Source: Lactobacillus amylovorus DSM 20531 (GTDB lineage Bacteria; Bacillota; Bacilli; Lactobacillales; Lactobacillaceae). From it: a stretch of DNA of 64,000 nt. Under the pieces are notes generated by a model. That model was not told the origin of the DNA. It did not search any database and worked only from the letters and a program-made list of their open reading frames with translations. The position numbers were made by a program, and so were the translations under genes. Below, one piece after another: positions 38,337 to 61,582 of the stretch. The stretch covers positions 1,364,001 through 1,428,000 of the forward strand of contig NZ_CP017706.1 of NCBI RefSeq assembly GCF_002706375.1, read 5' to 3'. Every line of letters begins with the position of its first letter. The stretch's first letter is position 1.

Positions 38337-38440
38337 TTGACACTTACAATAATGTTGTATAATTTGAGTGTTAGTAAAGTGTGGCTCTGGTAATCTTCAG
38401 TGAGAGGTTATTGGGGCATTTTTAGTGATATGGATATTTT
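38337..38440 (+). promoter_or_regulatory. Leader copy A: promoter plus hairpin/T-run before the YobI-like gene
   Basis: TATAAT is at 38358-38363. A stem with arms 38384-38396 and 38404-38417 uses several G-T pairs, and T5 follows at 38419-38423. A TGATATGGATATTT box (38426-38439) comes after it. The same arrangement occurs at 56.96 and 61.44 kb. TTGACA at 38337-38342, inside the IS66 right end, may act as its -35 box (spacing 15). The 270 bases from here to the gene show nothing else that I recognise. Confidence 0.65.
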
Positions 38441-38691
38441 AAGGTATAGTTGCTGTGTGAATGAATAAACAAAGAGATTACAACGCAGGTCAAATCAAGA
38501 TTATTTGACTATTGATTAAGAATAAGAGATGAATTTTCCCATCTTTTCTTTTATCCTGAATAGTTCTTATTAAGGATGGTACAAGTAGAAGTAATTAAAT
38601 GGCTTATGGGGAGAAAAGCGACAATTTATTTTAACAAAAATATATTTATAAACAGTAATTAAGCAACCTATAGAAAATAGAGATATACAAC

Positions 38692-41600
38692 ATGAATAGT
38701 AAACTAAAATATAATGATGCAATTAATGGTGCACTTTATCCATATGATTTTTTGAATCGAGAAATTTGTAAGCCTGAGTGGGATAATTTAGAAAATGCAT
38801 TAAACGATACTAGGGTGACTAATATAGCAATATCCGCTCCGTATGATACTGGTAAAACTAGTTTTCTTTTAAGCTTTTTTACTCAAAAGCATATGGATTA
38901 TTTAAAAAAAGAGTCAGATATTCCAGTATCTGAATATGAATTAAGGAAAAAAGCAAGAAAAGATATTACAGAGAATAAAACAAATTTTAGTTTTATTAAT
39001 TTGCCCAATTTCTTTTTAAAAAAGGAAGGAAAAGAATCCGAAATTGAACTAGAGAAAGATATTATTGGGCAACTTTTATTTAGTTCCAATCCTTGGTACT
39101 ATCCTGATTCAAAAATTAGAAGATTAAAAGAATATCCTTTTTGGAGTATAGGAATAGCATATATATTAATCGCAACTTTTATTTCACTTGGAGTAGCACT
39201 ATTTAATAAGAAACTAAATGATCTAACTGATATTTTTCAGTATTATAATAGCTTATCAAATAGTGCTAAAACTTTCGTATTTCTTGGTCTCGTATTAGGA
39301 TTTTGTATTTTTTATTTTTGTGTGCATTATTTTTCTAAAATTTCTTGGACTTTATCAAGTAATTTTGGAAATAAAATAGAACTTTCAGGTCAATACAAGT
39401 CTGATGATCCAAATGTTGTTAATAAAGACTTGTTGCTCCTTTATGGAGATGAACTAAAGTATTATTTTAAAAAAAGTAGAATAAAATATGTAATTTTTGA
39501 AGATCTAGATAGATATAATCAACCACTTATTTTTCAACGGTTACGACAGTTGAATATAAACTTAAACAAAGGTAAACAACGTATTGTCTTTATTTATACT
39601 TTGAAAGATTCAGTTTTTAATCAAAGAGTTACTTCTGCTAATGAGAATATTAAATCTGATGAAAATGATGATGATGGAGAAACTGATAACGGTAATGCTG
39701 CTGAATTAAAAAGTAAATTTTTTGATTATATTATTTCGCTTATGCCGACTACTAGTTTTCAAAATTCTAAGGGAAGATTTAAAGATGAAATTAGGAATTA
39801 CCGTATTTTAAGAAGAAATGATAGTGAGAAATCCCAATCTAATAATAATGATGAGATATATGACGGTAAGATTGATGAAAAGTATTTGGATGGACTGGGT
39901 AACTTTATATATGATACAAGAGAAATAGTAAGTATTATATCTGAAGTTGCTACATATGCTCAAAAATTATCTGATAGGAATATTTCAATTGATAAATTAT
40001 TAGGTGTAGTGGTCTATAAAAATGAATATCCAGAGGACTTTGAAAATATTATAAATGGTACCTCTAAAATAAGTTGCTTAATGCAAAATCGATTTATCTT
40101 TTATGAAATTGATAAAGAAGAAGCGACCAAACAAGCTTCAAATTTGAAATCGTTAGATACTTCTAAAGCAGAGATAGAGGATAAAAAGTATAGTGAAATT
40201 ATAAAGAATTTCCTTGAGAAATATCCCACTACAGATGATTTAGTAACAGTAGTAGAGAAAACCGAAGATTTTAAGGAGCTAGATTCCCAAGAACGACATT
40301 TGTTAAAACAAAGTATAGCTCTCGTTTATGATGAAAAATTGATCCGCTATTTACTTATAGAAGATTTATTAGATCCAACTTATTGTGAATATATATCCTC
40401 AAGTGCATATACTTTATCTTTATCTGACCGGATATTTGTTCAAAATGTATTAAGTTATCATTTATATAATAAAGATCAGAAATTGGATAATGCAGAAGAA
40501 GTAAGAAAAGAATTAGATTCGGCTGGAGCAAATTATAAATTTGCGTATTCATCCGATTTAATTATTAATTTAATATCGTCTAAAGATTTGATATCAGAAA
40601 TAGAAGATTTTATTATTCCAAGTGAGATTGCTAAAATATTGCAAACTGCAAGAAAATTAGATGATATAGATATAATTTCTAATGTGATAAAGAAGGTAGA
40701 GTATTTTACAAATAGTAAAGAACTTCTATCTATCTTTATACATTCTATAATGTATGCATGGCCAAATTTTTATAAATTAATTGGTGATACAAGTGTTAAT
40801 AGTGATGCATATCCTAATAGTCAAAATATTATAGAAGCAATTTTGATCTATTTAAGTTCTAACAATGATGAAGAATTTAAGGCTTTATTAAATAAAGATT
40901 CCGTATTAGATCTCCCTGCTTATGTGAGAGAAATAAATAAATTAAGTTTAAGAAAACTTAGCAATATTGATTATCAATTTGAAGATTTAACTTTTATTCA
41001 AGGTAGTTCTCGAGCTTTAGTAAGTCTTGTAAAGAAGAATAATTATCAAAAGAATACAAAGAATTTTGAAATTATTATGAACCAACTTTTACATACAGAT
41101 TTTAGTGAATTATTGAAAAATAAAGATATTTATCATCTTGATGATGAGTTTATAAAAGATAATATATTTAGTTATTATTCTTCCATTAATCAATATAAAT
41201 TAACTAGTTTAACTGAATTGGCTAAGTATTTTAATAAATTATTGAGTGATAAGCATGAATTACAAAGTTATGATGTCAAAATATTAACACTTTATTCAAA
41301 TAAAAATGTAATATCATCTACAAGTGATATATCTGAATTTTTGAATAGCATTAATTTTGTTCAATTAGTTAATGAAAAATCGATTGATAGTAAATTTATT
41401 AAGAGACTGATTGAAGCTGATAAACTGATTTATAGCAAAGAAATATTTGAAAATCTGTATGCTGATGATAAACAAATTGCATTAGAGTATGCATGGAAAT
41501 ATGAGAATGAAGACAATATTTCTGATTTCTTCTATGAAAGACTTTGGAAATTCATTATGGATTATCTTGAAAGAAGTCGGTATCAAACTGAAATTGTTGA

Positions 41601-42006
41601 CATGATTGATAATCAAGAAAATCTAAATTTTACTGAATCAGATTGTTCAAATGAATCAATAAAAATAATGCTGAATAAAACCAAAAATGCAAAGGTTATC
41701 AGACACATTATGCAATTTCGATCATTATCTGAGGATAACCGCGGTTTAATAATAAATAGAATCTTTTCTGATCTTAGATTTAAACAAAAGTTCTCTAGGG
41801 AAGAAGTTAGTCAATTTATATTTAATACTCCTATTTTTATTAAAACTTGGGTATTTGATGGGAAACATGAAGTGGTTAATAAAGAATTAATAGACGAATA
41901 TAAAGATCAGTTTAATTTACTGTATAACAATATCCCTCAAAGTTTTAAAAAGAAGGGGACTAATAAATTTATCTTTTTAAAGAAGTTTAAATTATGGTTA
42001 ATTTAG
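38692..42006 (+). CDS. YobI-like large P-loop NTPase with membrane segments
   Basis: The 1104-residue protein resembles the YobI family of P-loop NTPases. Walker A is APYDTGKTS at residues 49-57. Two membrane helices lie at about 150-171 and 194-214, and a Walker B-like VIFEDLDRY follows near residue 268. The remaining 800 residues are helical, AT-rich in codon use and lack recognised motifs. STAND/KAP-like membrane NTPases of this sort are candidate phage-defence proteins, which would suit its IS-rich neighbourhood; that is inference. The ribosome site is weak, 270 bases after the hairpin leader. Confidence 0.75.
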   Translation: MNSKLKYNDAINGALYPYDFLNREICKPEWDNLENALNDTRVTNIAISAPYDTGKTSFLLSFFTQKHMDYLKKESDIPVSEYELRKKARKDITENKTNFSFINLPNFFLKKEGKESEIELEKDIIGQLLFSSNPWYYPDSKIRRLKEYPFWSIGIAYILIATFISLGVALFNKKLNDLTDIFQYYNSLSNSAKTFVFLGLVLGFCIFYFCVHYFSKISWTLSSNFGNKIELSGQYKSDDPNVVNKDLLLLYGDELKYYFKKSRIKYVIFEDLDRYNQPLIFQRLRQLNINLNKGKQRIVFIYTLKDSVFNQRVTSANENIKSDENDDDGETDNGNAAELKSKFFDYIISLMPTTSFQNSKGRFKDEIRNYRILRRNDSEKSQSNNNDEIYDGKIDEKYLDGLGNFIYDTREIVSIISEVATYAQKLSDRNISIDKLLGVVVYKNEYPEDFENIINGTSKISCLMQNRFIFYEIDKEEATKQASNLKSLDTSKAEIEDKKYSEIIKNFLEKYPTTDDLVTVVEKTEDFKELDSQERHLLKQSIALVYDEKLIRYLLIEDLLDPTYCEYISSSAYTLSLSDRIFVQNVLSYHLYNKDQKLDNAEEVRKELDSAGANYKFAYSSDLIINLISSKDLISEIEDFIIPSEIAKILQTARKLDDIDIISNVIKKVEYFTNSKELLSIFIHSIMYAWPNFYKLIGDTSVNSDAYPNSQNIIEAILIYLSSNNDEEFKALLNKDSVLDLPAYVREINKLSLRKLSNIDYQFEDLTFIQGSSRALVSLVKKNNYQKNTKNFEIIMNQLLHTDFSELLKNKDIYHLDDEFIKDNIFSYYSSINQYKLTSLTELAKYFNKLLSDKHELQSYDVKILTLYSNKNVISSTSDISEFLNSINFVQLVNEKSIDSKFIKRLIEADKLIYSKEIFENLYADDKQIALEYAWKYENEDNISDFFYERLWKFIMDYLERSRYQTEIVDMIDNQENLNFTESDCSNESIKIMLNKTKNAKVIRHIMQFRSLSEDNRGLIINRIFSDLRFKQKFSREEVSQFIFNTPIFIKTWVFDGKHEVVNKELIDEYKDQFNLLYNNIPQSFKKKGTNKFIFLKKFKLWLI

Positions 42007-42047
42007 TATGTTGGATATAGGTGTAAACAGTTAAGAGATATGATTGT

Positions 42048-42085
42048 AAAAATAACCACGTTATGATTATGTGGTTATTTTTACA
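42048..42085. terminator. Terminator of the YobI-like gene
   Basis: AAAAATAACCAC (42048-42059) pairs perfectly with GTGGTTATTTTT (42071-42082). Confidence 0.88.
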
Positions 42086-42114
42086 CGAATTAAGTGATAT
42101 AGATTTAAAAAGAT

Positions 42115-44024: not shown

Positions 44025-44202
44025 AATTATATTGCTTTTTGATAGATATTTTAAAACGGAAAAAGGTAGATCAAAACATAATATAAAATTGATAATGTAA
44101 AATATAGAAAAAACTATTTGAATACTATATACTGTGCTGGTAAATGAAAAGTATCTATATGTGGTATTAATCCTATTAGATTAATAGAAATGGAAAAATG
44201 AA

Positions 44203-45102
44203 ATGAGAGAATATTTATACATAGACGATGTTGAAATTAATTCACTGCTGGCACAACAAAATAAAGGAGTAACAACGGGCAAAACGATTACAGAATCAAA
44301 TTCAAATACCTTAAGTCATTCCACAACTACAGGTGGTGAAACTAAAGGTGGAGGAGAGGGAAAGATACCTTTTTTAGCTAAGGCTGAAGGAAGTCTGACA
44401 CTGCATTATAATTCGACTAAAGACGAGGGTATTGAGAACACGGATCAAACTGCAATTAATACAGTATTAAATGATTATATAGTTACCTTATTAGAAGAAA
44501 ATCTTCAAGGTAAAATAAAAATGAAATATGACGATATAACTGTAGGAGATGTTGTGAATATTACGGAGTCTCCCAAGTTGTATGATTTTGAAACTATATC
44601 TAATTCCACTGATCATGAGTTATTAAAAAAAGTTATGCAAATCGGTATGGAAGATGATATTAATGAAGTGAAAGAAAAATATAGAAAAGCAATTGCAAAG
44701 AATCCTTCCTTAAAGCAAAAACGAAATCAAGAAATTAGAGAAATTAAGGCTGATAATATTGATGGATTAAATGGATTAGATTACATAAATTTATTTGGTG
44801 AATATGGCAAGAAAGTATTTCCAAATACGATAGTCTTGGCTGGAGATGACTGTATAGCGTATACAAAAATTAAAAATTTTAGGATGAATCCTGCTCAATT
44901 AACCAGTATTGCAAACAGTCCAAGAAAAATGCATATTTTAGGTATTATAGAAAATGAATTGAAAGAAAATCCAATGAAAGCAGAAGTAAATGATATTGGT
45001 CAAATAAGTTCTTCAATTGCTAATGTATTATTATTTAATTTTTCTATTGCTAAAGTTGGAATGCTAGTTATTAAGCCGTTAGCTATGTATTACGAGATCT
45101 AA
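44203..45102 (+). CDS. DUF6414-like protein
   Basis: The 299-residue protein begins REYLYIDDVEINSLLAQQNKG, typical of the DUF6414 family. A Gly/Thr/Ser-rich stretch (about 30-55) is followed by a mixed domain ending in hydrophobic strands (ANVLLFNFSIAKVGMLVIKPLAMY). Function is unknown. The family often sits with phage-defence genes, and here it lies between two AbiH remnants and SIR2-like genes. It has no signal peptide. The gene is intact, with a separate weak promoter region upstream. Confidence 0.55.
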   Translation: MREYLYIDDVEINSLLAQQNKGVTTGKTITESNSNTLSHSTTTGGETKGGGEGKIPFLAKAEGSLTLHYNSTKDEGIENTDQTAINTVLNDYIVTLLEENLQGKIKMKYDDITVGDVVNITESPKLYDFETISNSTDHELLKKVMQIGMEDDINEVKEKYRKAIAKNPSLKQKRNQEIREIKADNIDGLNGLDYINLFGEYGKKVFPNTIVLAGDDCIAYTKIKNFRMNPAQLTSIANSPRKMHILGIIENELKENPMKAEVNDIGQISSSIANVLLFNFSIAKVGMLVIKPLAMYYEI

Positions 45103-45134
45103 GGTTTTTGGATTATATTGAGGAAAATAAAAAT

Positions 45135-45440
45135 ATGTCTCAATACTACACAAGTGGCGAATTTGCGAAGAAGGCGCATGTTTCAATTCGTACAATTCGC
45201 TACTATGATCAGAAGAATTTATTAAAGCCGGCAACGCACACTAAAGGTGGTGCACGGCTATATACAGACCAAGATTTTGCCAAGTTGCAACAGATTCTAC
45301 TATTAAAGTATCTTGGTTTTTCACTCAGCGATATTCGTGAAATGACGATTGGATCAGGGGATAAGCAATTACTCCGCAATTCACTCCAAATTCAAAAGCG
45401 TCTTGCTGTAAAATACTATTTAGAAAGACCTTTGACCTAA
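45135..45440 (+). pseudogene. Truncated copy of the MerR part of the MerR-methyltransferase gene
   Basis: The first about 91 codons (45135-45407) match the gene at 50216 with about 11 differences in 271 bases, all synonymous. The sequence then diverges within codon 91-92 and ends 11 codons later. The MerR helix-turn-helix and first helices (YTSGEFAKKAHVSIRTIRYYDQ) are intact, but the regulator lacks its effector/methyltransferase domain. Its upstream DNA differs from that of the full copy. Confidence 0.85.
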
Positions 45441-45487
45441 TCTTTATAGATTGGAATTAAGTTTTAACTTTATATTGGGGAGTAGAA

Positions 45488-45880
45488 ATGAAAATTTATA
45501 AAAAAACTATTATTATTTTGATAGCAATATTATCAGTAATTTTTTTGAGTATTTCGTTTAGTAAACCAGTTCAAGCAGCTAGATGGCATAGATCAGTACC
45601 GACAGCAGTTCGTGGAAATTATCATAATGCAAAATTAAAAATTACAGTTCAAATTCAAAAAAAGAATGTATATTATATGCCTGATAACGGAGCTGCCGTT
45701 TCTCCAGCTAAAAGAATATATTCAAGAAAGTTGAGAAAAAACGTTTATCAATATAAACGGGATAGTTTCAAGAGTCCCACTATTACTTTTAAATTTGGAT
45801 ATAAGAATGGTCGGAAGTATTTGAGAGTACATGGAGCCTCTTCTATTTTAGATAAGTATACATACTGGAAAGTTAAGTAA
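45488..45880 (+). CDS. Small secreted basic protein
   Basis: The 130-residue precursor has a signal peptide (KKTIIILIAILSVIFLSISF, cleaved near PVQAA at residue 31) and a 99-residue mature part rich in Lys, Arg and Tyr. No Cys pair or bacteriocin leader is present. A GGGGAG site precedes the ATG. It resembles small surface proteins of lactobacilli of unknown role, perhaps a wall-binding protein. Confidence 0.6.
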   Translation: MKIYKKTIIILIAILSVIFLSISFSKPVQAARWHRSVPTAVRGNYHNAKLKITVQIQKKNVYYMPDNGAAVSPAKRIYSRKLRKNVYQYKRDSFKSPTITFKFGYKNGRKYLRVHGASSILDKYTYWKVK

Positions 45881-45911
45881 TTTTGTAATGAGATGAATTA
45901 ATAGATGAAAT

Positions 45912-45950
45912 GTCACATGATTGTCAGATGACAATTGCGTGGCTTTTTTT
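45912..45950 (+). terminator. Terminator between the secreted-protein gene and the SIR2-like gene
   Basis: GTCACATGATTGTC (45912-45925) pairs with GACAATTGCGTGGC (45930-45943), with some mismatches, and T7 follows. Confidence 0.8.
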
Positions 45951-46075
45951 GTGTAAAAATTATTTGTTCTTCAGTATTTATAGATAGTCTGCTAATATTA
46001 ATATATGAACGTAAGTTTGATATGATTTATCTAATTATCAGCTGCATTAATGATAAATACGCAAAGGGACATAAT

Positions 46076-47563
46076 ATGAATTTACAAGATTTAATAGCTA
46101 ATTTTACTACTACACCATTTCTTTTTATTGGCTCAGGGATGACAAGAAGATATTTAGGATTACCTAATTGGGAGGGATTGTTAAGACATTTTGCTAAAGA
46201 AGTTTCAAATAATGAATTTGCATATAATTCTTATGTAAATAAAGTACAGTCGTCTGGAAATTCGATAAATGTGATGCCAAAAGTAGCTACTTTAATTGAA
46301 AAAGATTATAACGCTAAATGGTATGAAAATCCTAGTATCAGAACATTAAATAAGGAAACTACAGATTTAGTAAAAAATGGACTTTCTCCTTTTAAAGCAG
46401 AAATTGCTTCATACATAAAAAGCCAAGGGGATATTGTTCCAGAATATAAAAATGAAATTAGGCAACTGGAACAATTATCTGTGAAAAATATCTCAGGAGT
46501 TATAACGACTAATTATGATACTTTTGTTGAAGATCATTTTAATAACTATAAAACTTATATTGGACAGAATGAATTAATTTTTTCTGCAATTCAAGGGATC
46601 GCGGAAATATATAAAATTCATGGTTCTGTTGATAAACCTGAGAGTATTATCATAGATGAAGAAGATTATGAAGCCTTTAATAATAAAGAAGCCTACTTAG
46701 CTGCAAAATTAATGACGATTTTTGTTGAATATCCAATTATTTTTATGGGATATTCTCTTAGTGATAGCAACATTAGAAATATTATTAGTGCCATTGTTAA
46801 ATGCTTGAATCAAACTCAACTTAACACGCTAAAAGACAGATTTATATTTGTAGATTATGAAGAAAATAAAAAGGGAGTAGATATAACTCCTTCTGAGGTT
46901 TCAATAGATGGGCTAACTTTATCCATGACGAAGGTAGTACTTAGTGATTATTCTCTTTTGTATGATGCTTTGGCTGAGAAGAAAGTTACAATACCAGTTC
47001 GGTTGTTAAGGCGTCTTAAACAGGATTTATATGAATATGTTATTACAAGTACTCCCACAGCTACGATACAGGTGGCGAATATAGATGATAAACGTATATC
47101 TGATGATGATTTAGCTTTGGCGATTGGAAAAGCTTCAGATCTCAGTTTGCGAGGATTAAGTGGAATAAGTAGTGATGATTGGTATCGTAATATAATTTTA
47201 GGAGATTTAGGTTGGGACGCAGATGATTTATTGAAATATGCTTTTCATAATTTATCATCGCAAAATTCTGGAAGATTACCTGTTAATAAGTTGCTTCACT
47301 TTGCTCATGGTTCATATAAGGAAGCAGAAGACACAGCTAAAAAGTACGATTTTAACGCAATAATTTCTAATACAATTAAGAAAAATCGAAAATATTGTAG
47401 ATATAATAGCGTAGATGAAATCTGGAAAGCAGAACATGATGATATAGGGAAAGCTACGGAATTGTTGTCATATTTGACAGAAGATCAAATCGATGTTGAT
47501 AAATTAGGACAAGTATTAAAAGAGATTTTGGTCGATTGTAAAATTAAGTTGAACACTTTGTAA
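46076..47563 (+). pseudogene. SIR2-like defence protein, 3' end replaced by IS30 insertion
   Basis: The product is a SIR2-family protein with the NAD-binding FIGSGMTRRYLG (residues 17-28), TTNYDTFVE near 144-152 (Asn146) and IHGS near 181-184 (His182). In phage defence such domains deplete NAD+. The C-terminal region of about 200 residues probably senses a trigger. ATG 46076 follows AAAGGGAC. After EILVD the frame enters the IS30 left end at 47533 and stops at 47563, so the native C-terminus is lost; a possible remainder lies at 48712-48824. The catalytic half is complete and could still be made. Confidence 0.75.
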
Positions 47564-48711
47564 AAAATAAAAGTCCATCTGGACCTGTTTGATAGAATGT
47601 TAATAACCACAAAAGCATCTATTGGAGGTCACAAATGGACTCTTTACATTCTACCATGAATCAGCACGTTAAAGGCAAGCACTTGTCATTTGAAGAACGG
47701 GTTATTATCCAAACTCGCTTAAAAGATGGCTGCTCTATTAGAGCAATTGCTCGCGAACTGGGCTGCTCTCCTTCTACGATCAGCTATGAAGTCAGACGGG
47801 GCACTGTTTCTCTCTATCACGGCAAGCAGAAGCGCTACAAGGCTGATCAGGGCCAAAGCGTTTATCAAATAAATCGGCGCCACTGTGGCCGCAAATCAGA
47901 TTTCTTGAAGAAGGCTGGCTTTATCAATTATGTCATTAAGCATTTCTTTGAAGACGGCTGGTCGCTTGACGTTTGTGCCAACCGTAGTTTAGCTACCGGG
48001 GAATTCTCGCATTATCAAACAGTCTGCACCAGAACTCTGTATAACTACGTTGATCAAGGACTGATGACCATCAAAAACTATGACTTGCCCGAAAAGCTCA
48101 AGCGCAATACCAAGCTTCATCATGTTCGCCAAAACAAGAAGAAGCTGGGACGAAGCATCGAAGAGCGGCCTAAAGAGATTGAGCAGCGCAGCGAATTTGG
48201 TCATTGGGAATGCGATCTTGTCTTGGGTCATAAGACCAAGGACGATCAGGTTCTGTTAACTCTTTCCGAGCGCATGAGCCGCGAATTCCTGATTATTCGT
48301 ATACCTGACAAGACCTCTGCCAGCGTCATGCAGGCTTTTCAAATGCTTCAAAAACAGTACAGCGAGCATTGGAACGATATCTTTAAGACAATTACTACTG
48401 ATAATGGTTCAGAGTTTGCGGATCTAGCTAATTTGGAACAAGTCTCTAAAACGCTTATTTATTATGCTCATCCTTATACTTCTTGTGATAAAGGAACTGT
48501 TGAAAGACATAATGGCCTGATCCGCAGATTCATTCCTAAAGGAGACTGCATCAATAACTATTCTCTCCAACAAATCATTGATATTGAAACCTGGTGCAAC
48601 TCTTTGCCTAGAAAGATCCTGGCATATCACACGCCAGATGAAATCTTTGAGAGAGAATTAGATCAAATCTATCAAGCAGCTTAAGTGTTCAATTTATTAT
48701 TGCAATTTACG
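47533..48711 (+). mobile_element. IS30-family insertion sequence, copy 1
   Basis: Comparing both copies shows the element is bounded by CGATTGTAAAATTAA on the transposase-start side and TTGCAATTTACG on the other. The inner parts form inverted repeats sharing AATTGAACACTT. Sequence outside these points differs between the copies. The two copies lie in opposite orientation about 14.7 kb apart and could recombine to invert the segment. Confidence 0.87.
47635..48684 (+). CDS. IS30-family transposase
   Basis: The 349-residue protein has the N-terminal IS30 helix-turn-helix (LSFEERVIIQTRLKDG, then IAREL GCSPSTISYEVRRG) and the DDE domain. The acidic residues are in HWECDLVLGHK, TTDNGSEFADL and GTVERHNGLIRRF. 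GGAGG at 47622-47626 precedes the ATG. It is intact and nearly full-identity in length to copy 2. Confidence 0.95.
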   Translation: MDSLHSTMNQHVKGKHLSFEERVIIQTRLKDGCSIRAIARELGCSPSTISYEVRRGTVSLYHGKQKRYKADQGQSVYQINRRHCGRKSDFLKKAGFINYVIKHFFEDGWSLDVCANRSLATGEFSHYQTVCTRTLYNYVDQGLMTIKNYDLPEKLKRNTKLHHVRQNKKKLGRSIEERPKEIEQRSEFGHWECDLVLGHKTKDDQVLLTLSERMSREFLIIRIPDKTSASVMQAFQMLQKQYSEHWNDIFKTITTDNGSEFADLANLEQVSKTLIYYAHPYTSCDKGTVERHNGLIRRFIPKGDCINNYSLQQIIDIETWCNSLPRKILAYHTPDEIFERELDQIYQAA

Positions 48712-48824
48712 TAAAAGAGATTTTTGATAATGATAGAAATATATTACAAGATTCTAAATCCCCAGTAAGAACAAATATTAGGCGATTAATTAGAATATAT
48801 GACTGTTTAAAGTGGAGAAGATAA
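48712..48824 (+). pseudogene. C-terminal coding remnant after IS30 (probable SIR2-gene tail)
   Basis: The open frame directly after the IS30 right end reads KEIFDNDRNILQDSKSPV and ends DCLKWRR. It is plausibly the displaced 3' end of the SIR2-like gene, or of a related gene. Its first bases (TAAAAGAGATTTT) repeat those before the insertion (near 47518), which is unlike the 2-3 bp duplication expected for IS30. Confidence 0.5.
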
Positions 48825-48828
48825 AACG

Positions 48829-48960
48829 AAAAAGCCCCATAGTTAAAGCGCCTAATAAACTAGACACCCCCTATGGGACCTTTTCAGTAATTATCATATT
48901 AACACGATGTACCTAATATAATAAGCAACTAACAGACTAGTTACCCTTATATCAAGCCCA
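48829..48960 (-). ncRNA. Possible minus-strand small RNA ending in a hairpin terminator
   Basis: On the minus strand a CCCATAG/CTATGGG stem (48836-48842 with 48871-48877) with a 28-base loop ends in a GGGGCTTTTT-like run at 48829-48837. Candidate -10 sequences (TTATTATATT) lie at about 48915. The hairpin also terminates plus-strand transcription (TTTT at 48881-48884). The rest of 48.83-49.05 kb shows no gene. RNA role is inference. Confidence 0.4.
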
Positions 48961-49053
48961 TCTTTACACTTATTATATCAAATTTAATTAGCAATATCCA
49001 AAAATGCTAAAACTAACTTTACAAGTGTAGTATTTTTAATAAGAGAAATTTTT

Positions 49054-50188: not shown

Positions 50189-50215
50189 GCATTTAATGAT
50201 AAAAGGATAATTATC

Positions 50216-51388
50216 ATGTCCCAATACTACACAAGTGGCGAATTTGCGAAGAAAGCGCATGTTTCGATCCGCACAATTCGCTATTATGATCAGAAGAATT
50301 TATTAAAGCCAGCAACGCATACTAAAGGTGGTGCACGGCTATATACAGACCAAGATTTTGCCAAGTTACAACAGATTCTACTATTAAAGTATCTTGGTTT
50401 TTCCCTCAGCGATATTCGTGAAATGACGATTGGATCAGGGGATAAGCAATTACTCCGCAATTCACTCCAGATTCAAAAGCGTCTTGTCGAAGAACGACTT
50501 GAAGAGATGAAGAATGTGGTGAATGCCATTGACTCAACTAGCCAGGCACTAGATCGCAATGATCAGGTTGATTGGTCGAAGATGCTTAACTTAATTCATT
50601 TAACTTCGATGAATCAATCACTTAGCATGCAGTATAAGAACGCTACGAATATTTCTGCGCGCATCCGTTTGCACCGAGATTATTCAGTGAATAAAGAAGG
50701 CTGGTTCCCATGGCTATTTAGTAACTTACATCTTAAGTCAGGAATGAAGGTCCTTGAACTTGGTGCAGGTAATGGTGCGTTATGGTCACAGAATATCGAT
50801 AAGGTGCCAGCTGGTGTGAATATTATTTTGTCAGATATCTCTGAAGGAATGTTAGCTGATGCCAAGAATGAGATCGGTGATAAGCCTGAATTTCAATATG
50901 CCGTGATTGATGCGCAGAAGATTCCTTTTGCTGACGATACCTTTGATCTAGTAATTGCCAATCACATGCTGTTTTACTGTGATGATATTTCGTTAGCGTT
51001 ACAGGAGATCCATCGCGTGCTCAAGCCTGGTGCATCCCTCGTATGCAGCACATACTCCCAGCGCCACATGTGCGAGATCACCGATCTAGTTCAGAGCTTC
51101 AATTCCAACATCGTTTTATCATCTACCAATTTGTACGAACGTTTCGGCTTAGACAACGGTAAGCAGATTTTGAGTAAGTTCTTTGACGACATCACCTGCA
51201 AGAAGTATCACGACGCAATCGAAATCTCCGAAGCTACGCCAATTATTTCATATATTCTTTCCTGTCACGGCAACCAGAACGAGATCCTGCTTAACCACTA
51301 CCAAGAATTTAAACAATATGTTGAGCAGAAGGTTAGTGGTGGCTTTAGCATTACCAAAGATGCTGGCTTTTTTGCTGCTAGGAAATAA
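50216..51388 (+). CDS. MerR regulator fused to a SAM-dependent methyltransferase
   Basis: The 390-residue protein carries a MerR DNA-binding domain (about 1-75) and a coiled linker (about 85-125). A class I methyltransferase follows, with motif I in KVLELGAGNGALW near residue 180, an acidic IILSDIS, and FDLVIANHML. MerR-methyltransferase fusions are known in lactobacilli and likely respond to a small molecule, possibly modifying it. AAAAGGATAA precedes the ATG. A truncated second copy of the first 91 codons lies 5.1 kb upstream. Confidence 0.88.
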   Translation: MSQYYTSGEFAKKAHVSIRTIRYYDQKNLLKPATHTKGGARLYTDQDFAKLQQILLLKYLGFSLSDIREMTIGSGDKQLLRNSLQIQKRLVEERLEEMKNVVNAIDSTSQALDRNDQVDWSKMLNLIHLTSMNQSLSMQYKNATNISARIRLHRDYSVNKEGWFPWLFSNLHLKSGMKVLELGAGNGALWSQNIDKVPAGVNIILSDISEGMLADAKNEIGDKPEFQYAVIDAQKIPFADDTFDLVIANHMLFYCDDISLALQEIHRVLKPGASLVCSTYSQRHMCEITDLVQSFNSNIVLSSTNLYERFGLDNGKQILSKFFDDITCKKYHDAIEISEATPIISYILSCHGNQNEILLNHYQEFKQYVEQKVSGGFSITKDAGFFAARK

Positions 51389-51661
51389 TTTTGGTGATTA
51401 TGTATTATGAAATCCAAATTTTTACTAATTTGGGCGTTTGTAAGTTTCAAGGTATAATTATTAGAGCTGATAATGATTCTAATAGGTAAATATAGATACA
51501 GATTAGAGTACAGAACTTTTTACAATGAATTGGCACATATCATAAATACACGCAAATGTCAATTCTTTTCTTTTTCTTTTTAAATAAACAGAAGATTGGC
51601 TTCAAACGTTGATATAACGGCATCCCTTTCTTTTTTCTTTCTTTTACTTATAGGTGTATTT

Positions 51662-53197
51662 ATGGATTTTATTAATTTTGTTAAAGATGTAGGTGCTCTT
51701 GAGTTTACAATTCCAAAAGAAGATTTGCATTTGGAATTCAAGACAGCAAGTTGGAAGTTACCTCAAAATATATGGGAAACAGTAAGTTCATTTTCTAATA
51801 CAGATGGCGGCCTTATTGTATTAGGTGTAGATGAACCTCAATCACATCATTATAAGATTGTAGGCGTTGATCAACCTGATGATGTAATAAAGGAATTGTT
51901 TAATAGTAATAACAATCCAACCGTAATTAATAAGCCTGTAATCCAGGATTCTGATGTTAAAGTTGCTAAGTTTGATGGCAAAACATTAATTCAAATCAGG
52001 ATATTGCCAGCACAATTCTCTGACAAGCCAATTACTTATAAGGACAAAACTTATATGAGATCCGATGACGGTGATCGCCTTGCTACACATGATCAATTGA
52101 AGTATTTATATGCTGAAAGCCAAGATCAGGTTGACACTAGATTGCTTGAAAACTTTGATTGGGATAGTGATTTGAATCTAGAAGATATTAATGACTATCG
52201 TAAAAAGTTAGAAAAAGTAGAAGATGCAGATAGTATATCGAAGTCAGATTATGAACTTTTAACAGATATTGGAGTATTGAGACGTGATAGACGTTCTTCA
52301 AGTAAAGAACGTAAATTAACTGAAGGCGGTTTGCTATTTTTGGTCAAGTTTATGTCAATAATGGATAGATTCCCTAGGTTCCAATTAGACTATACAAGGT
52401 ATGCTAAAGATGGAGACACCGATTGGGTTGATCGTGTTTCAGCAGGAGACATGAATTATCCAGAAATGAATATTTATTCATTTTATAATATAGTTTTGCC
52501 TAAAATCACTTCTAATATTAACGATAAGTATATTCAAGATGAGGATTTGACAAGGGGAAGCTATGTTGCTGATTTAAGATCTGCTGCAAAGGAAGCATTA
52601 GTTAATTGCTTGATGCACGCTTATTATGATGGAACTATAGCAATTCAAATAGAGGATCGTCCAAGTTATTGGGAATTCACTAATCCTGGTGATATGCGAG
52701 TCAGCAGAGAATCATTTCTACGTGGTCAAAAGTCAGAGGTAAGAAATTCAGAAATTGCCACTTTATTTAGAAGGATTGGTATTTCAGAAAAGAGAGCCAG
52801 TGGGGGACCCAGAATTTTAAGAGCTGCAAGCAGAAATCACTTGATGGAACCGGAAATCGAAATTGATGCAACTAATAAAATTACGAAAATAAGAATTTGG
52901 AAAATAGATATTCGAACCAAAATTGATGACGAGATGGTTTTGGATCCAACTGAAAAATTTATTATTGATTATGCCATTCAAAAATCTGAATTTAGTTTCT
53001 CTCAAATGTTTAAGGATATGAATGATAAATTTGGAAGCAACAGTACTGTAAGAAAAAGACTAAACCATCTAATAGATGAAAAAATTTTAATTTCAGAAGG
53101 AAACGGTAAATCTACAGTATATAAACTAGAAAAAACTAGTGAACAAGAACAAGTAGATAAAATAATGAGATTGAAAAATATGGAAGAAAAACTGTAA
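51662..53197 (+). CDS. Schlafen AlbA_2 domain protein with HATPase-like and winged-helix regions
   Basis: The 511-residue protein has an N-terminal AlbA_2 (Schlafen-type) domain: LEFKTASWKLPQNIWETVSSF, NTDGGLIVLGV, and YMRSDDGDRLAT. Then come an HATPase_c_4-type part (AAKEALVNCLMHAYY, FTNPG, RNSEIATLFRRIG) and a C-terminal winged helix (VRKRLNHLIDEKILI). These proteins are counted as regulators or phage-defence factors. ATG 51662 with TAGGTG upstream is chosen over a more upstream start lacking a site. The 270-base gap before it holds a TATAAT-like box near 51454 and no gene. Confidence 0.85.
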   Translation: MDFINFVKDVGALEFTIPKEDLHLEFKTASWKLPQNIWETVSSFSNTDGGLIVLGVDEPQSHHYKIVGVDQPDDVIKELFNSNNNPTVINKPVIQDSDVKVAKFDGKTLIQIRILPAQFSDKPITYKDKTYMRSDDGDRLATHDQLKYLYAESQDQVDTRLLENFDWDSDLNLEDINDYRKKLEKVEDADSISKSDYELLTDIGVLRRDRRSSSKERKLTEGGLLFLVKFMSIMDRFPRFQLDYTRYAKDGDTDWVDRVSAGDMNYPEMNIYSFYNIVLPKITSNINDKYIQDEDLTRGSYVADLRSAAKEALVNCLMHAYYDGTIAIQIEDRPSYWEFTNPGDMRVSRESFLRGQKSEVRNSEIATLFRRIGISEKRASGGPRILRAASRNHLMEPEIEIDATNKITKIRIWKIDIRTKIDDEMVLDPTEKFIIDYAIQKSEFSFSQMFKDMNDKFGSNSTVRKRLNHLIDEKILISEGNGKSTVYKLEKTSEQEQVDKIMRLKNMEEKL

Positions 53198-53206
53198 TGA
53201 ATGGGA

Positions 53207-53250: not shown

Positions 53251-53328
53251 TTATTTTTTACTCTTGAAAGTGACGTAACGTAAGGTTGTACAATCGATAT
53301 GAATTAAGTATTAAGTCGGAGGAATTCT

Positions 53329-54366: not shown

Positions 54367-54370
54367 TATC

Positions 54371-55255: not shown

Positions 55256-55277
55256 TTTTCAATAAAGGAGAAAAATA

Positions 55278-55886: not shown

Positions 55887-55906
55887 TTAGCGAGGTAGAT
55901 TAATTA

Positions 55907-56893: not shown

Positions 56894-56911
56894 TTGGATA
56901 GATGAGGAAGG

Positions 56912-56938
56912 AAGCATCCCTGTGGGGGATGCTTTTTT
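56912..56938 (+). terminator. Terminator of the rfb operon
   Basis: AAGCATCCC (56912-56920) pairs with GGGATGCTT (56926-56934), followed by T6. Confidence 0.9.
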
Positions 56939-56959
56939 GATACATAAAAATATATGATA

Positions 56960-57035
56960 TTGATATAATTAAATTGCTATAAATGTTGTAAAACTCCGTT
57001 AATCTCTGAGTGAGGTTAATGGAGTTTTTTAGTGA
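56960..57035 (+). promoter_or_regulatory. Leader copy B: promoter plus hairpin/T-run before the reverse transcriptase gene
   Basis: TATAAT is at 56964-56969, and a second TATAAA at 56978-56983 aligns better with copy C. Arms ACTCCGTTAATCTC (56993-57006) and GAGGTTAATGGAGT (57012-57025) pair fully, and six T follow. The RT gene starts 27 bases later. The TT/AA pair in mid-stem replaces the AT pair of copy C, a compensatory change. Confidence 0.65.
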
Positions 57036-57056
57036 CCAAGATATAGAGAGCGGAAA

Positions 57057-59024
57057 ATGGAAGATACTACAAACTATTTATTTCATATTTCTAAAAAGGT
57101 TTGGAAGGATACATGTAACATGTATTTTAAGATTAGTTCGGGATCATTAAGAAATTACTTACAACTTTATCCATTTTCTAAAATGACTTGGAATGATAAG
57201 CAATATCTCATGAATGATAAATTTTATAGTAAATATATAAAAAATGGAGCAATAGTACAATTTACTGATGTTATGAGGATTACAGATAACTATCTCTTAA
57301 AAAAGGATGGTAGTTTTCGGGATTCAACACTATTATCACCAATATTATTCTTAGTTCTTCAAGCTATAGGAAAAGAAATTTCGTTGAAATATCAAAATAC
57401 TAGGAGTACTCAGATTGCAACTTATTATTCAGGTAATTACAGTTCAATGAATGCCAAATATAGTAAAGAATATAGTTATTTTTATCGTGAATGTAAAAGA
57501 TGTGCGACAAAATATGATTATTTCATAAAAACAGATATTTCTAGTTTTTTTGTTAATATTAACGTTGATAAATTGATAGAAAAAATAAAAGTGAATTGTA
57601 ATGATAGTGTTCAATTAAATCAACTAAAAATATATAAAGAATTTTTACAATATTGTGGAAAGGGAAAATTTCCATTAGTTGAAAATAGTATTGCAAGTTC
57701 CTATTTGGCAACAGTCGTTTATTTAAATGATAGTGATAATAGACTTATAGATTATTTAACTAACAATTTAAATATTGCAGATTTTAAAATAGTACGATAT
57801 GTTGATGATTTATATATTTTTTCAAATGAATTTGATATAAGAAGCTTTCATAAAATTAGAAATAAATATTCTTCATATTTAAAGAAAGAGGATTTAGCAA
57901 TAAATAGTGAGAAAACTAAATTTTTACGATCAGATGAATTAGAAAATGAAATTAAAACCTCTTTTTATGGTGAAGATCAAATTAAAATTGTTGATGATTC
58001 TGATTTGAACTTAAATAATATTAGAGACAGATTTCTTCAATTTTTAAAATCTTTGAATGATCTTTTAGCTGATAATGAATTAGATTATAAAGAATATAAA
58101 AAGATAATTGATAGTTCATTTAAAAGTGATAGTAATTTAGTTCCAGATGAGTTGTTTAATAAAATAATTTACGATAAAAAGATAAATTCAGGGGCAACTT
58201 CTGTATATCAAGATCCTTATATATTAAGTGAACTTTCAAAGTTGATAGCATATGATGACTTCTTTTGGGTAGATCCCAAAAGATTATTCATTATGTTCTT
58301 GAATACTAAGGACGGTAAACTAATAAAGCCTATTTTAAGTATGTTAGGGAAGAAAAAAGCTGAAGAATGGACATTTTATGATTTAGTTATGGCAATAACT
58401 TATTTGACTCATAGAAGAACCTCATTTAGAAACTTTTACTCGCATATTTACAATATTGATCATAATTTGGCTACCTACTTAGATTATGATTATACTGGTA
58501 ATTTTAAATCCCAGTTTGAAAGTGTTGCTATAAATAATTTAATTACAGTTACTGACGCCGATATTACTTCAGGTTGGATCTCCTACTATTTGTATTTTGA
58601 ATCGATAATAGAATATTCTAAGAACAACATACTAACAAGTTATGCATTTTTTAAAAATTATTTTGATAGAACAACTGCAAATATTGATTTCTATTTTGAT
58701 GAGAATAAAAGAAAAAGAATGAAGAGGAGAGGAAGAAAAGGAAAAGGAAAAGGAAAAGGATCTATTTATAGTGGGTATTATAAGAAACAGCAACTGCAAA
58801 AAGTTTATCGTATTTTGAATAAGCAAAATGAAACAGATGAGATAATCTCAAAGGCGAATGACCTAAGAAACAATAATCCACTTTCTCATGCAGCAGCTCA
58901 GTTATTGCTTGATATTGATAATCCAAGTGAACCCAAAACGGAAGAGCTAATTGCTACCATGCGATCATTGTTTAAATTATTAGTGGAGTTATGCAACTAT
59001 TACATAAATAAGCGGTATAACTGA
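57057..59024 (+). CDS. Abi-type reverse transcriptase with HEPN-like C-terminus (AbiA-like)
   Basis: The 655-residue protein carries an RT domain: Asp160 in FIKTDISSFFVNI (motif A), an ENSIASSYLATVV segment, and the catalytic YVDDLY at 248-253. The C-terminal third is helical, with a Lys/Gly-repeat insert near 555-570 and the motif RNNNPLSH at 604-611, which fits the R-X4-6-H of HEPN domains. RT followed by HEPN and this length match AbiA abortive-infection proteins (about 620-630 residues), which may make protein-primed DNA. No msr/msd region typical of retrons lies upstream. It follows leader copy B. Confidence 0.75.
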   Translation: MEDTTNYLFHISKKVWKDTCNMYFKISSGSLRNYLQLYPFSKMTWNDKQYLMNDKFYSKYIKNGAIVQFTDVMRITDNYLLKKDGSFRDSTLLSPILFLVLQAIGKEISLKYQNTRSTQIATYYSGNYSSMNAKYSKEYSYFYRECKRCATKYDYFIKTDISSFFVNINVDKLIEKIKVNCNDSVQLNQLKIYKEFLQYCGKGKFPLVENSIASSYLATVVYLNDSDNRLIDYLTNNLNIADFKIVRYVDDLYIFSNEFDIRSFHKIRNKYSSYLKKEDLAINSEKTKFLRSDELENEIKTSFYGEDQIKIVDDSDLNLNNIRDRFLQFLKSLNDLLADNELDYKEYKKIIDSSFKSDSNLVPDELFNKIIYDKKINSGATSVYQDPYILSELSKLIAYDDFFWVDPKRLFIMFLNTKDGKLIKPILSMLGKKKAEEWTFYDLVMAITYLTHRRTSFRNFYSHIYNIDHNLATYLDYDYTGNFKSQFESVAINNLITVTDADITSGWISYYLYFESIIEYSKNNILTSYAFFKNYFDRTTANIDFYFDENKRKRMKRRGRKGKGKGKGSIYSGYYKKQQLQKVYRILNKQNETDEIISKANDLRNNNPLSHAAAQLLLDIDNPSEPKTEELIATMRSLFKLLVELCNYYINKRYN

Positions 59025-59057
59025 AAAATATTGAGTATAGAAGGTGATTAGGGAAGA

Positions 59058-59889
59058 ATGATTAAAATTTTTGAAGGCTATGCTTGGGTTCAAGTTAATA
59101 CCTTTGGTGTTATTCAACAAATAGATAAAGAGAAGTTTGAAAACTATAGCAAATTGCTAAGAATCTTTTTACCAATTCAGGATTTGTATCGAACATATCG
59201 AAATGTGAATTTACAATTTTCTTTATTACAAGACTTAACAGCACAATATGATGCTAGGAAAATAGATCCTAACACTGTTTTCAACTTAACAGAAAGCAGT
59301 ATAACAGCTTACATACTTATGCATAGAATGTTTGTAGAGAATTGTAAAAGCTTTCAACGTAATCATGAGAATGCGAATATTTCGGCTTTGATTATCGATT
59401 TACAAAATAAAGATACGGAAAAGAATATGAAAGTTCTTCGAGACTATGCTATGCATACTAGCATTCCAATGTCAGGAGTGAAAATGCATACGGATGTAAA
59501 ATGATGAAGCTAATCTCCGACAAAGATTTCATTCTACTCTTCATGTAAAAATTGATGCTGATGAGATGGATACTCATGAGTTAAGTCGCCAGAATATAGA
59601 GAGAATTAATGAGTGGGGATATGAACTAGATATAACTGAAGAAATAAAAACTGCATGGAACAATTTAAAGGATTTTGCCAAAAAAGTATTTAAAAATTAC
59701 TTGGACACATATGTTGATGAGAACTTACGTAAAGTGGTAATTTCTGATAAGAAATTATGGCAGGAGAGACTAATACCTTTAAAAACTACTGGAGTTACAT
59801 ATCAACCTAAAAATAGTATCCCTCAGGATACTGTTTTTATGGATTATGATGCATTGGCATATTGTGTTAATTGTATGTTAGATGAGTAA
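59058..59889 (+). pseudogene. Gene of unknown function downstream of the RT, split by a frameshift
   Basis: Codons from 59058 to 59504 give 148 residues (MIKIFEGYAWVQVNTFG), ending at GTAAAATGA. Skipping one base in the AAAA run continues DEANLRQRFHSTLHVKIDADE straight into the frame that ends at 59889, giving about 277 residues. I do not recognise a family. It begins 33 bases after the RT and may be its partner. One lost A, rather than two separate genes, is the simplest reading. Confidence 0.6.
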
Positions 59890-59893
59890 CATT

Positions 59894-60310
59894 ATGATAA
59901 ATGAAAATCACAACGCAATGCTTTTTATGATCGAACTAAGATAAATACTGTTCGTGTATTAAATATAGATTCCTTTAAAGATTTTAAGAAGGAATTCGCT
60001 AAAGCAAATATCACTGATTCATACTGGGAGGATGCCAATAATTTATCATTTATGAAGCATGCTAATGCATACGTAGCACAGCTCATTGCTCTTTATCAAT
60101 TAGCTTTGGCCGAATATATCAAGGCTAATAAGGATACTCTTGATGAAATACAAGCGAAAATGAAAGATACGGTATTACGTAACACTATTGTTGGGAGCAA
60201 TACTTCACCTTAAGATGTGCCAAATGCTAAGAAGCAGAATAACTTCACGCTGCATCCCATAGTAACGCTGCCAGATCTGTAGGACGCTGGCGACGGGCGG
60301 CGGAATTATT
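59894..60310 (+). pseudogene. Third gene of the RT cluster, decayed by frameshift and nonsense codons
   Basis: An ATG at 59894 starts MINE and then slips at an AAAA run. The frame continues SQRNAFYDRTKINTVRVL through FMKHANAYVAQLIALYQLAL to a TAA near 60211, then DVPNAKKQNNFTLHPIV to a TAG near 60282, and ends by 60310. The TAA and TAG could be CAA and CAG once mutated. I do not recognise the family. It starts 4 bases after the preceding gene's stop. Confidence 0.5.
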
Positions 60311-60383
60311 TATAATGAGATATAAGGAATCAGCGCTAATGACGTTGGTCAACAAGGCTTCGTGCTAAGTTGATTCAGGTTTT

Positions 60384-60420
60384 AAGCATCATGCACTTAT
60401 GTGTGTGATGCTTTTATTGT
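60384..60420 (+). terminator. Terminator of the RT cluster
   Basis: AAGCATCATGCAC (60384-60396) pairs with GTGTGTGATGCTT (60401-60413), including two G-T pairs, followed by T-rich sequence. An upstream GAATCA/TGATTC stem (about 60331 and 60371) may belong to the same RNA. Confidence 0.8.
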
Positions 60421-60700
60421 TTTTATAGGAAGTTAGAGCAAGAGAGGATAGTCAAGATTGAGCGATAATGAAAGATGCTAGCCTTGGTGATACTTGAGAT
60501 TAGTTAACACATTTTGACAAAAAGGGGATAGCACGAATTTACATTCTTCATAATTATGGCACTTCTTAGATAGTGTTTGAAATTATTATCGTCGGTTTAT
60601 CCTTGATAAGATTAGTGAATAATTTGTACATTTTAAAGATAAGCGTTGATAATGGAATATTTACTAAATTCTACTCAAAATGAATAAAAATTTATACGTT
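60421..60700. other. Intergenic stretch without recognised content
   Basis: I see no coding frame, tRNA-like fold or repeat in these 280 AT-rich bases. The last bases carry the TATAAT of the following small RNA. Confidence 0.5.
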
Positions 60701-60701
60701 A

Positions 60702-60832
60702 TGATATAATACTTCATGAAAAAAGAGACATACTAATGTATGTCTCTAATACCATTGTGTAACAATGGAGTACGTCACACTATTTTAAAGTTTACTATTT
60801 TCTTGGCGGTCAATAGTAAACTTTTATTTTTT
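60702..60832 (+). ncRNA. Candidate antisense antitoxin RNA
   Basis: An extended -10 box, TGATATAAT (60702-60710), predicts a start near 60717. Two perfect hairpins follow (60724-60733 with 60738-60747, and 60752-60758 with 60762-60768), then a terminator with arms 60787-60799 and 60812-60824 and T6. The terminator overlaps the 3' end of the convergent small membrane-peptide gene. Convergent RNAs sharing one bidirectional terminator are the layout of Fst-type type I toxin-antitoxin loci. Confidence 0.55.
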
Positions 60833-61000
60833 ACGTTTTGAAAATTTCTTCAGTTGCTTTTTTAACTTGTTTGCGGACTTGATTAGGTCTGTTAATGCGT
60901 TGACTGTTTTTCTCAATTCTTTAATAAGCCGATTTAACTGCCACATCAAGTAGGCTAAAGCTGCAAATACGATAGTTAATACGTATATTAATTGCAACAT
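60824..61000 (-). CDS. Small membrane peptide, candidate type I toxin
   Basis: The 58-residue product has one hydrophobic helix (LIYVLTIVFAALAYLMW, residues 4-20) followed by about 35 amphipathic, highly basic residues ending KFSKRKK. Small single-helix peptides with basic tails are typical of type I toxins, though no exact family is recognised. AAAGGGAA lies about 10 bases before ATG 61000. A TTGCTACAA/TTGTAGCAA hairpin lies upstream at about 61078-61101 and may control the mRNA. It could instead be a small holin-like or stress peptide. Confidence 0.6.
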   Translation of the reverse strand: MLQLIYVLTIVFAALAYLMWQLNRLIKELRKTVNALTDLIKSANKLKKQLKKFSKRKK

Positions 61001-61104
61001 GTTTTGAAGTATTCCCTTTCTGTAGATTTGTCACGCTTTTCATAAGCATCACCTGTTTCTATAGAATCGGTACTTCATTGCTACAAGATGTATTGTAGCA
61101 AATG

Positions 61105-61418
61105 TCTATAAAGATTCATACTTTAAATTAATTATGAATTATGTTATTTAAAACTGAAGCTAAATTAAATACAAAGCGTTGCTATTATGCTGATAAATAA
61201 GTGAAAGTGTTATAAATTTTAATGGCATAACTTATTTATATTCATATATAGGAGGAATACGTTATTTAAATGCAAAAGCTTATCAATAATTGATGCAAGC
61301 AAACGATAGCTTTTTGGGCCAAAAGGTCGTTTTTATAATAATACTGGTTATAGGTACTATTAACAGCTTATCAAAGAGATAAGTCATCAACAGTGAAAAT
61401 TATACAGCTATTTAAATA
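61105..61418. other. Intergenic stretch before leader copy C
   Basis: No reading frame of note. A GGAGGAA followed by a seven-codon frame at about 61280 appears meaningless. A weak AACGA/TCGTT stem with T-run at 61303-61335 might be a terminator. Confidence 0.4.
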
Positions 61419-61523
61419 TTGCTATGAAATATGTAATATTGCTATAATTTGGGTGTTTGTTAAAATGCAGCTCCGATAATCTCCATTCAGAGGTTATTGG
61501 AGTTTTTTGTTTGATATGGATAT
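61419..61523 (+). promoter_or_regulatory. Leader copy C: promoter plus hairpin/T-run before a SIR2-like gene
   Basis: TTGCTA (61419-61424), 18 bases, TATAAT (61443-61448) form a good promoter. Arms CTCCGATAATCTC (61471-61483) and GAGGTTATTGGAG (61490-61502) pair fully and T6 follows. TGATATGGATATTT at 61512-61525 repeats the box of copy A. The gene begins 75 bases after the T-run. Confidence 0.7.
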
Positions 61524-61582
61524 TTGATGCTAAAGATTGTGAGCATCATAAAAATAAGTAATATAGTTTCGGAGAATAAGTA

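Follow-up and report, generated by a model that had tools for sequence, protein, structure and literature searches.

A short promoter-terminator leader repeated before unrelated defence genes in Lactobacillus, a candidate premature-terminator brake

In type III toxin-antitoxin loci such as ToxIN and AbiQ, a promoter, an RNA, a terminator and a toxin gene follow one another in this order. The stem of the PyrR attenuator (RF00515) has the consensus ARUC/GGYU, with a U.G wobble. The attachment sites of integrons and other cassettes are marked by a repeated hairpin at the cassette ends and an abrupt change of neighbouring genes. In Clostridioides difficile, the AbiF gene is accompanied by an upstream RNA, RCd22 (RF03085), in an arrangement that comprises a promoter, a short RNA with an intrinsic terminator and an abortive-infection (Abi) gene reached via read-through; in abiD1 of Lactococcus, a short, prematurely ended transcript lies 5' of an Abi gene that is activated by a phage protein (both according to the available text of PMC12373285). 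In the accessible parts of a general survey of premature terminators (PMC2965389), the words phage, restriction and defens- are absent. Here, we describe a leader of about 85 bases that occurs three times in a 64,000-nucleotide (nt) stretch of Lactobacillus amylovorus DSM 20531 (GCF_002706375.1, NZ_CP017706.1, positions 1,364,001 to 1,428,000; hereinafter, the window, part of a 2.17 Mb genome), each time before a different defence-type gene.

Comparison of 22 copies of this leader suggests that it is a premature terminator acting in cis, reused before unrelated defence genes via recombination at the leader, a reading that we hold, with restrained confidence, to be probable. The three copies in the window sequence, all on the + strand, extend over 38358-38439 (A), 56964-57044 (B) and 61443-61523 (C), and consist of the following parts:
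38358..38363, + strand: copy A, -10 box TATAAT (sequence and alignment A4)
near 38370, + strand: copy A, predicted RNA start
38384-38417, + strand: copy A, terminator hairpin, with the U-run at 38419-38423 (fold z -3.3, stem pairs)
38425..38439, + strand: copy A, post-terminator motif GTGATATGGATATTT (sequence and alignment A4)
56964..56969, + strand: copy B, extended -10 box TGATATAAT (sequence and alignment A4)
near 56976, + strand: copy B, predicted RNA start
56990..57030, + strand: copy B, terminator hairpin and U-run (fold z -8.3)
57032..57044, + strand: copy B, post-terminator motif, diverged (GTGACCAAGATAT) (sequence and alignment A4)
61443..61448, + strand: copy C, extended -10 box TGCTATAAT (sequence and alignment A4)
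near 61455, + strand: copy C, predicted RNA start
61469-61504, + strand: copy C, terminator hairpin, with the U-run to 61508 (fold z -5.6)
61510..61523, + strand: copy C, post-terminator motif TTTGATATGGATAT (sequence and alignment A4)

A sequence-only reading of the window had noticed these three copies with their TATAAT-like box, stem and T-run, and all three were recovered where it had placed them. In copy A, a TTGACA-like hexamer lies about 15 nt 5' of the TATAAT box, which is not preceded by TGn. The same genome holds two further copies past the window end:
G000:C1:1429554: copy D
G000:C1:1440608: copy E
With copy A as the BLASTN query against its own genome, C (E = 1.2 × 10−14) and D (E = 3.0 × 10−9) were retrieved and B was not; because B is missed by this query and matches C only weakly (E = 0.0088), it has diverged furthest among A, B and C. 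A covariance model (CM) built from 15 copies scored A, B and C, all training members of that model, at 75.6, 78.1 and 85.1 bits, and the next place in the window at 19.5 bits. The folds of the single copies A to D were more stable than those of dinucleotide shuffles (z = -3.3, -8.3, -5.6 and -4.0, respectively). A simple finder detected such a terminator behind two of the window's 105 TATAAT sites (A and C; B was missed), compared to 30 of 4000 random places.

At the sequence level, the trend across the 22 copies is consistent: an intrinsic terminator stands between a promoter and the gene. The motif TGnTATAAT is present in 19 copies (alignment A4), TATAAT with a pyrimidine-G (YG) pair, the likely RNA start, about 7 nt further on in 20, and a 13-pair stem is followed by a T-run in all 22. 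The 5' part is A/T-rich and variable, one subtype and the copy G037 having an insert of 10-13 nt there, and the predicted RNA, from start to U-run, is 54-58 or 63-70 nt long (20 copies with a promoter). The stem tip, AAUCU/AGGUU, is near-invariant, with the U.G wobble retained in 21 of the 22 copies and five neighbouring tip pairs constant in 21 or 22. After the U-run comes GTGATATRGAT or a variant (14/22 copies by one relaxed pattern, B excluded), and the TGATATGGATATTT reported earlier as common to A and C downstream is real. RNAfold and RNAalifold show the terminator as the sole conserved helix.

The cells of the stem are paired in 96.1% of the cases over the 22 copies, compared to 38-54% in slid controls. 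This value applies to the transcribed (+) strand; on the opposite strand, pairing drops to 78.9%, because 49 of the 285 cells are G.U, and the better pairing on the + strand fits the expectation for RNA. Two-sided changes were found in 10 cells, a number reached by none of 500 shuffles, at 3 pairs, a number matched by 150 of 500; the base of the stem varies mostly by G.U pairs, with one U-A/C-G exchange. The stem had been described as covarying, which holds for the two-sided cells, in excess of all shuffles, but the signal is modest, being confined to 3 pairs, and the tip is conserved in sequence.

Two other candidate elements were rejected. In many copies, RTG TTT GTT AAG would encode M-F-V-K, but the predicted RNA start falls on the G of RTG, and, depending on the copy, the frames stop short of the stem or cross it (by eye, alignment A4). 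By eye, a separate promoter within the post-terminator motif (TGATATAGAT) would have a poor -10 box and, in several copies, overlap the ribosome site.

The genes that follow the copies in the window are these:
38692..42006, + strand: after copy A, YobI-like nucleoside triphosphatase of 1104 amino acids (aa), Tmn-related (PF20693, E = 1.9 × 10−61; PADLOC Tmn, E = 3.2 × 10−16)
57057..59024, + strand: after copy B, AbiA reverse transcriptase with a HEPN C-terminal domain (PADLOC AbiA, E = 3.1 × 10−192; PF18732)
61583..62266, + strand: after copy C, SIR2-like open reading frame (ORF) of 227 aa (similarity to a PF13289 protein)
62285-63388, - strand: IS30-like transposase gene (named by eye) that truncates the SIR2-like ORF

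The last 64 aa of the ORF behind copy C share 95% identity with a 347-aa protein carrying PF13289 (SIR2_2), and a GAGAS motif was recognised by eye; scans of the ORF itself against Pfam and PADLOC gave no match. The earlier claim that the copies precede unrelated genes of defence type is borne out by the YobI-type ATPase, the AbiA reverse transcriptase and this truncated SIR2-like ORF. Over all 22 copies, the following genes were classified as listed:
A, G002b: YobI/Tmn, assigned
B: AbiA, assigned
G059: KAP/PifA-like, assigned; E and G449b, start of the same gene
G021, G447a: Abi_alpha, assigned
G449c: AbiK, assigned
G449a: membrane ORF and short ORF, then PDC-M46A/B, assigned
G027b: C5 methylase and GmrSD_N, assigned
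C: SIR2-like, weaker
G043c: HEPN, via relatives with PF18735 and a UniRef name, weaker
G447b: membrane ORF, then SocA_Panacea, weaker
G027a: nuclease-like (23.9 bits vs a cut-off of 23), weaker
G043a, G028, G037, G448: kind not recognised

Thus, 11 of the 22 copies precede an assigned defence gene, 4 a weaker candidate and 4 a gene of unrecognised kind, and 3 have no gene, these numbers including three KAP, two YobI and two Abi_alpha genes that are not independent. No recognisable housekeeping gene was found behind any of the 22 copies, which occur in several species, so that the motif is neither restricted to this locus nor scattered before random housekeeping genes. As a control of gene content, 16 loci were taken from 18 weak rows of the model search described below; a clear close gene was present in 4, none defence-like by eye, and the others had no gene or doubtful short ORFs, numbers too small for statistics.

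The number and spread of the copies were derived with two covariance models. The first (R1), built from copies A to D, yielded 25 places at E 0.05 in 75 genomes of the genus Lactobacillus, one genome per species; of the 24 that were viewed, 15 had the whole pattern by eye, and the other 9 were ordinary terminators or doubtful. The second (R2) was built from 15 rows picked by eye, so the R2 scores of those rows are high by construction; some of them had been weak in R1, amid ordinary terminators (G002b, E = 0.02; G043c, 0.0057; G059, 0.0019), and the copy on G027:C44 and six copies in metagenome-assembled genomes (MAGs) were outside the training set. R2 detected 16 places at E ≤3.5 × 10−6 in 8 of the 75 species genomes, the next place having E = 0.0037, and three MAGs add the six copies, for 22 in all. 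Among 397 family and 395 order (Lactobacillales) genomes, R2 found nothing convincing outside the genus Lactobacillus: of the 34 weak rows from the 397 genomes, the 25 viewed all read as ordinary terminators, and the 395 genomes gave six weak rows, with G077, G100 and G156 among those viewed and G538, G614 and G687 left out. One match of the GTDB scan (L110) proved to be a chance match inside a gene. A pattern scan of viral contigs gave 0 matches, the same pattern fitting 19 of the 22 known copies, and there was no match in plasmids with three copies as queries or in phages with one. The leader is a real family, found in the searches made only in Lactobacillus and Lactobacillus-like contigs.

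Several observations belong beside these searches. The MAG contigs L111, L114, L117 and L119 are labelled Coprosoma, Clostridium or Tenericutes and by eye resemble Lactobacillus DNA (a galU-like gene and the same leaders), so these labels may be wrong, the contigs probably being mis-binned. At L052:7120-7208 (on G043:C23), a 37.7-bit match, left out of all counts, has TATAAT and a stem, TTATCTC/GAGGTAA, with the U.G wobble intact, and may be a distant copy. In an island of L. kitasatonis (L046, G043:C29 1-19000), three leaders are accompanied by an Abi_2 gene and by an ABC-three-component-like unit that includes DUF3732.

For an analysis of the junction between leader and gene, every copy was compared by BLASTN together with as much as 1.2 kb of flanking DNA per side, which gave 113 leader alignments among 231 possible pairs. 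None of the 109 alignments with different following genes extends more than 20 nt past the leader 3' end, and in 12 of these, more than 100 base pairs (bp) of upstream DNA are 80-95% identical and the identity ends abruptly at that point; the longest such match (G043c vs G449b) reaches the 1.2 kb limit. Of the five same-gene pairs, four have alignments that continue for 60 to 759 nt, and the fifth (A/G002b) aligns only within the gene. The break in homology indicates that the gene behind the leader was replaced recently, with the breakpoint at or in the leader. Within one subtype, leaders with wholly different genes behind them are 87-99% alike, which is suggestive of leaders being passed on through recombination at the leader. 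In 11 of 15 one-subtype pairs (G027b omitted; the pairs are non-independent), the leader is more alike than the 130 bp upstream.

At the places of relatives of AbiA (2), KAP (4) and YobI (4) in other genomes, with 27-39% identity, R2, on which their leaderless status rests, found no copy; in the view of the 330 nt 5' of these relatives, some KAP and YobI matches (G070 above all) begin inside the gene, so that the true upstream region was missed. Gene relatives lacking the leader imply that it is a module and not part of any one gene family. Some 260 bp of the window (60233-60491, the left end being the limit of the comparison) are 89-92% identical to the DNA just 5' of E-type leaders (G043b and G059), yet no leader follows; this segment looks like the scar of a lost or exchanged leader unit.

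The leader might, then, be mainly a recombination joint where defence cassettes exchange or insert, with any effect on transcription secondary. Besides the homology breaks with matching upstream DNA, this is compatible with the array-like order on L119, where a leader, a membrane ORF with a PDC-M46 pair, a promoter-less leader and AbiK are followed by further units, namely an ORF resembling the Abi_2 scanned on L046, a leader and the start of KAP, and with G027b having only ~77 bp in common with its nearest kin. However, in the scanned stretches, no gene had a copy at its far end; identical junctions would also arise by homologous recombination between repeated leaders; and a DNA site does not account for the promoter, the U-run and the wobble pairs of the top strand. 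We consider this explanation rather unlikely. The related idea, in the sequence-only reading, that the leader serves a cassette insertion system as its recognition end agrees with the homology break at the leader 3' end, but no second site was detected by CM in the stretches scanned, and the only recombinases noticed were transposases of insertion sequence (IS) type, by eye, with no profile search made.

Under the reading that we prefer, a premature-terminator brake, RNA polymerase would start at the extended -10 promoter, and the leader RNA of ~54-70 nt would mostly end at the built-in terminator, as the hairpin and U-run suggest. The defence gene would be transcribed mainly via read-through, because in most copies the start codon is so close behind the U-run that little room is left for a promoter of its own. 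The first ORF begins 14-74 nt past the U-run in 12 of the 22 copies (the ATG at 26 nt in B and 74 nt in C); in G447b, start candidates lie 0-15 nt past it, and in G449b, the start region is as in E, at 35 nt, the gene being cut soon after. A terminator also lies within 130 nt upstream of the promoter in 11 of the 22 copies (simple finder), compared to 239 of 3000 random window stretches. The combination of a promoter, frequent insulation by an upstream terminator, an early terminator and a near start codon would imply that expression needs read-through. Speculatively, the stem tip with its retained wobble and the motif after the U-run could be sites where a trans factor or the polymerase alters read-through, the constant stem tip being the best candidate for a recognised element. 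The leader would thus be a reusable 5' module, kept before costly or toxic defence genes.

Several observations weigh against this reading. In 5 of the 22 copies, the gene is distant enough to have its own promoter (A, 268 nt; G447a, 203 nt to the intact part of a broken frame that itself begins sooner; G027b, 175 nt; G449c, 139 nt; G043c, 105 nt), and three orphan copies, D, G043b and G002a (at a contig end), have no close ORF. The promoter is missing from two copies, namely from G449c, before AbiK and behind another defence gene, and from G027b, before the methylase gene; a relative in the window's own genome (L042:6161-6223) keeps the promoter and the post-terminator motif and lacks such a hairpin. 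The CM found no copy at the window defence-type genes SIR2_2 (45935), AbiH (49054) and AlbA-type (51596). Promoter-less copies, a hairpin-less relative, orphans, far genes and leaderless defence genes together indicate that the device is dispensable and not retained in every case. Furthermore, only 8 of the 75 species genomes carry the leader, 4 of the 19 following genes are of unrecognised kind, and the count of 11 defence genes among these 19 is raw, not set against the background rate of such genes. No antiterminator partner was seen in the folds or otherwise by eye, and neither a trigger nor an aptamer-sized domain, which the 5' part, given its shortness and variability, hardly seems able to hold; no linked regulator was noticed, without a systematic search. 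The shared attenuator proposed earlier is, then, supported in part: several species have a leader with promoter and terminator in front of unrelated defence genes, but no antiterminator is visible in it.

As regards the neighbourhood of these loci, L042:6161-6223 precedes a 268-aa ORF with no match in Pfam or NCBIfam. Window region 44203-53197 holds, amid IS genes, leaderless genes for DUF6414 (44203), SIR2_2 of the PDC-S25 type (45935), AbiH (49054) and a protein of the AlbA_2/Schlafen type (51596).

The room for separate promoters at the five genes 105-268 nt away, the terminator-promoter-RNA-terminator order in about half of the copies, and the compact, conserved RNA would also suit a small RNA gene of 54-70 nt, acting in trans on phage or host RNA beside the defence genes. 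We find this improbable, given that copies without a promoter persist before genes, that 12 of the 22 leave little space between U-run and start codon, that the unpaired 5' part varies and has the 10-13 nt insert in one subtype, and that one antitoxin RNA could hardly be common to such different effectors. Conceivably, too, the leader is a passive remnant of an old gene whose 5' end became a repeated landing site for incoming genes and ISs and was kept by chance and recent copying: the orphans D and G002a adjoin IS66-like ends (named by eye), the genes behind C, E and G449b are truncated, and the distribution is patchy. A mean pairwise identity of 72% combined with an invariant core implies long upkeep, however, and with stem pairs kept through changes and no recognisable housekeeping gene behind any copy, such a remnant appears quite improbable.

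In a broader form of the premature-terminator reading, one leader RNA family would constitute a defence regulon: an RNA-level brake would keep many unrelated anti-phage genes off until one infection event, such as a phage factor or altered termination, released them jointly, and the leader would also provide the joint for plugging in new defence genes. This is possible but on present evidence unlikely. Defence genes are costly to express, and joint silencing of unrelated systems in one genome is little known; a short leader common to seven assigned gene families, and perhaps to as many as eleven, would offer an experimental handle on it. Used as bait, the leader also makes defence candidates of the four unrecognised genes behind it. 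Full-text searches, in the texts they reached, which leave out most subscription journals, gave no report of one leader common to unrelated defence genes.

Limited Rfam searches revealed no convincing relative of the leader: RF03085 had no match in the window at the gathering level, in 56900-61600 (E 5) or in ten leader loci (E 10), and the only overlap with leader loci was weak, CopA at 25.1 and 23.1 bits vs a cut-off of 60. Matches above gathering scores elsewhere in the window were a COG3610-DE RNA (9995-10116) and a Transposase-1 RNA (22468-22525).

Compared to integron-type sites, the leader differs in having a promoter and a U-run and in being one-sided in the stretches scanned, where the CM found no second copy; no integrase was noticed, with no profile search made. 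Type III toxin-antitoxin loci have the same order of elements, but the leader has no visible tandem RNA repeats (none by eye) and no endoribonuclease common to all copies, and the following genes scanned gave no ToxN-type match. PyrR-type attenuators have a stem with a U.G wobble that resembles the leader tip, but the base after AAUC is C, as opposed to U in 22 of 22 leader copies, and no antiterminator was seen in the leader. Control by PyrR was rejected: the genome has three PyrR-type leaders by score, two of them over the cut-off, with another loop, RF00515 is absent from the ten leader loci at E 10, and the PyrR loop CNGNGA is not matched in any of the 22 alignment rows. As far as the available text describes it, abiD1 similarly has an early-terminated transcript before an Abi gene, but it concerns a single gene, and its activation is described for translation; the likeness is judged from that description (PMC12373285). 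The AbiF/RCd22 arrangement, judged from the same text, has the layout of the leader, with a promoter, a terminated short RNA and then an Abi gene; RCd22 is, however, tied to one gene family and is ~88-132 nt long, whereas the leader described here is 54-70 nt long and precedes many unrelated genes.

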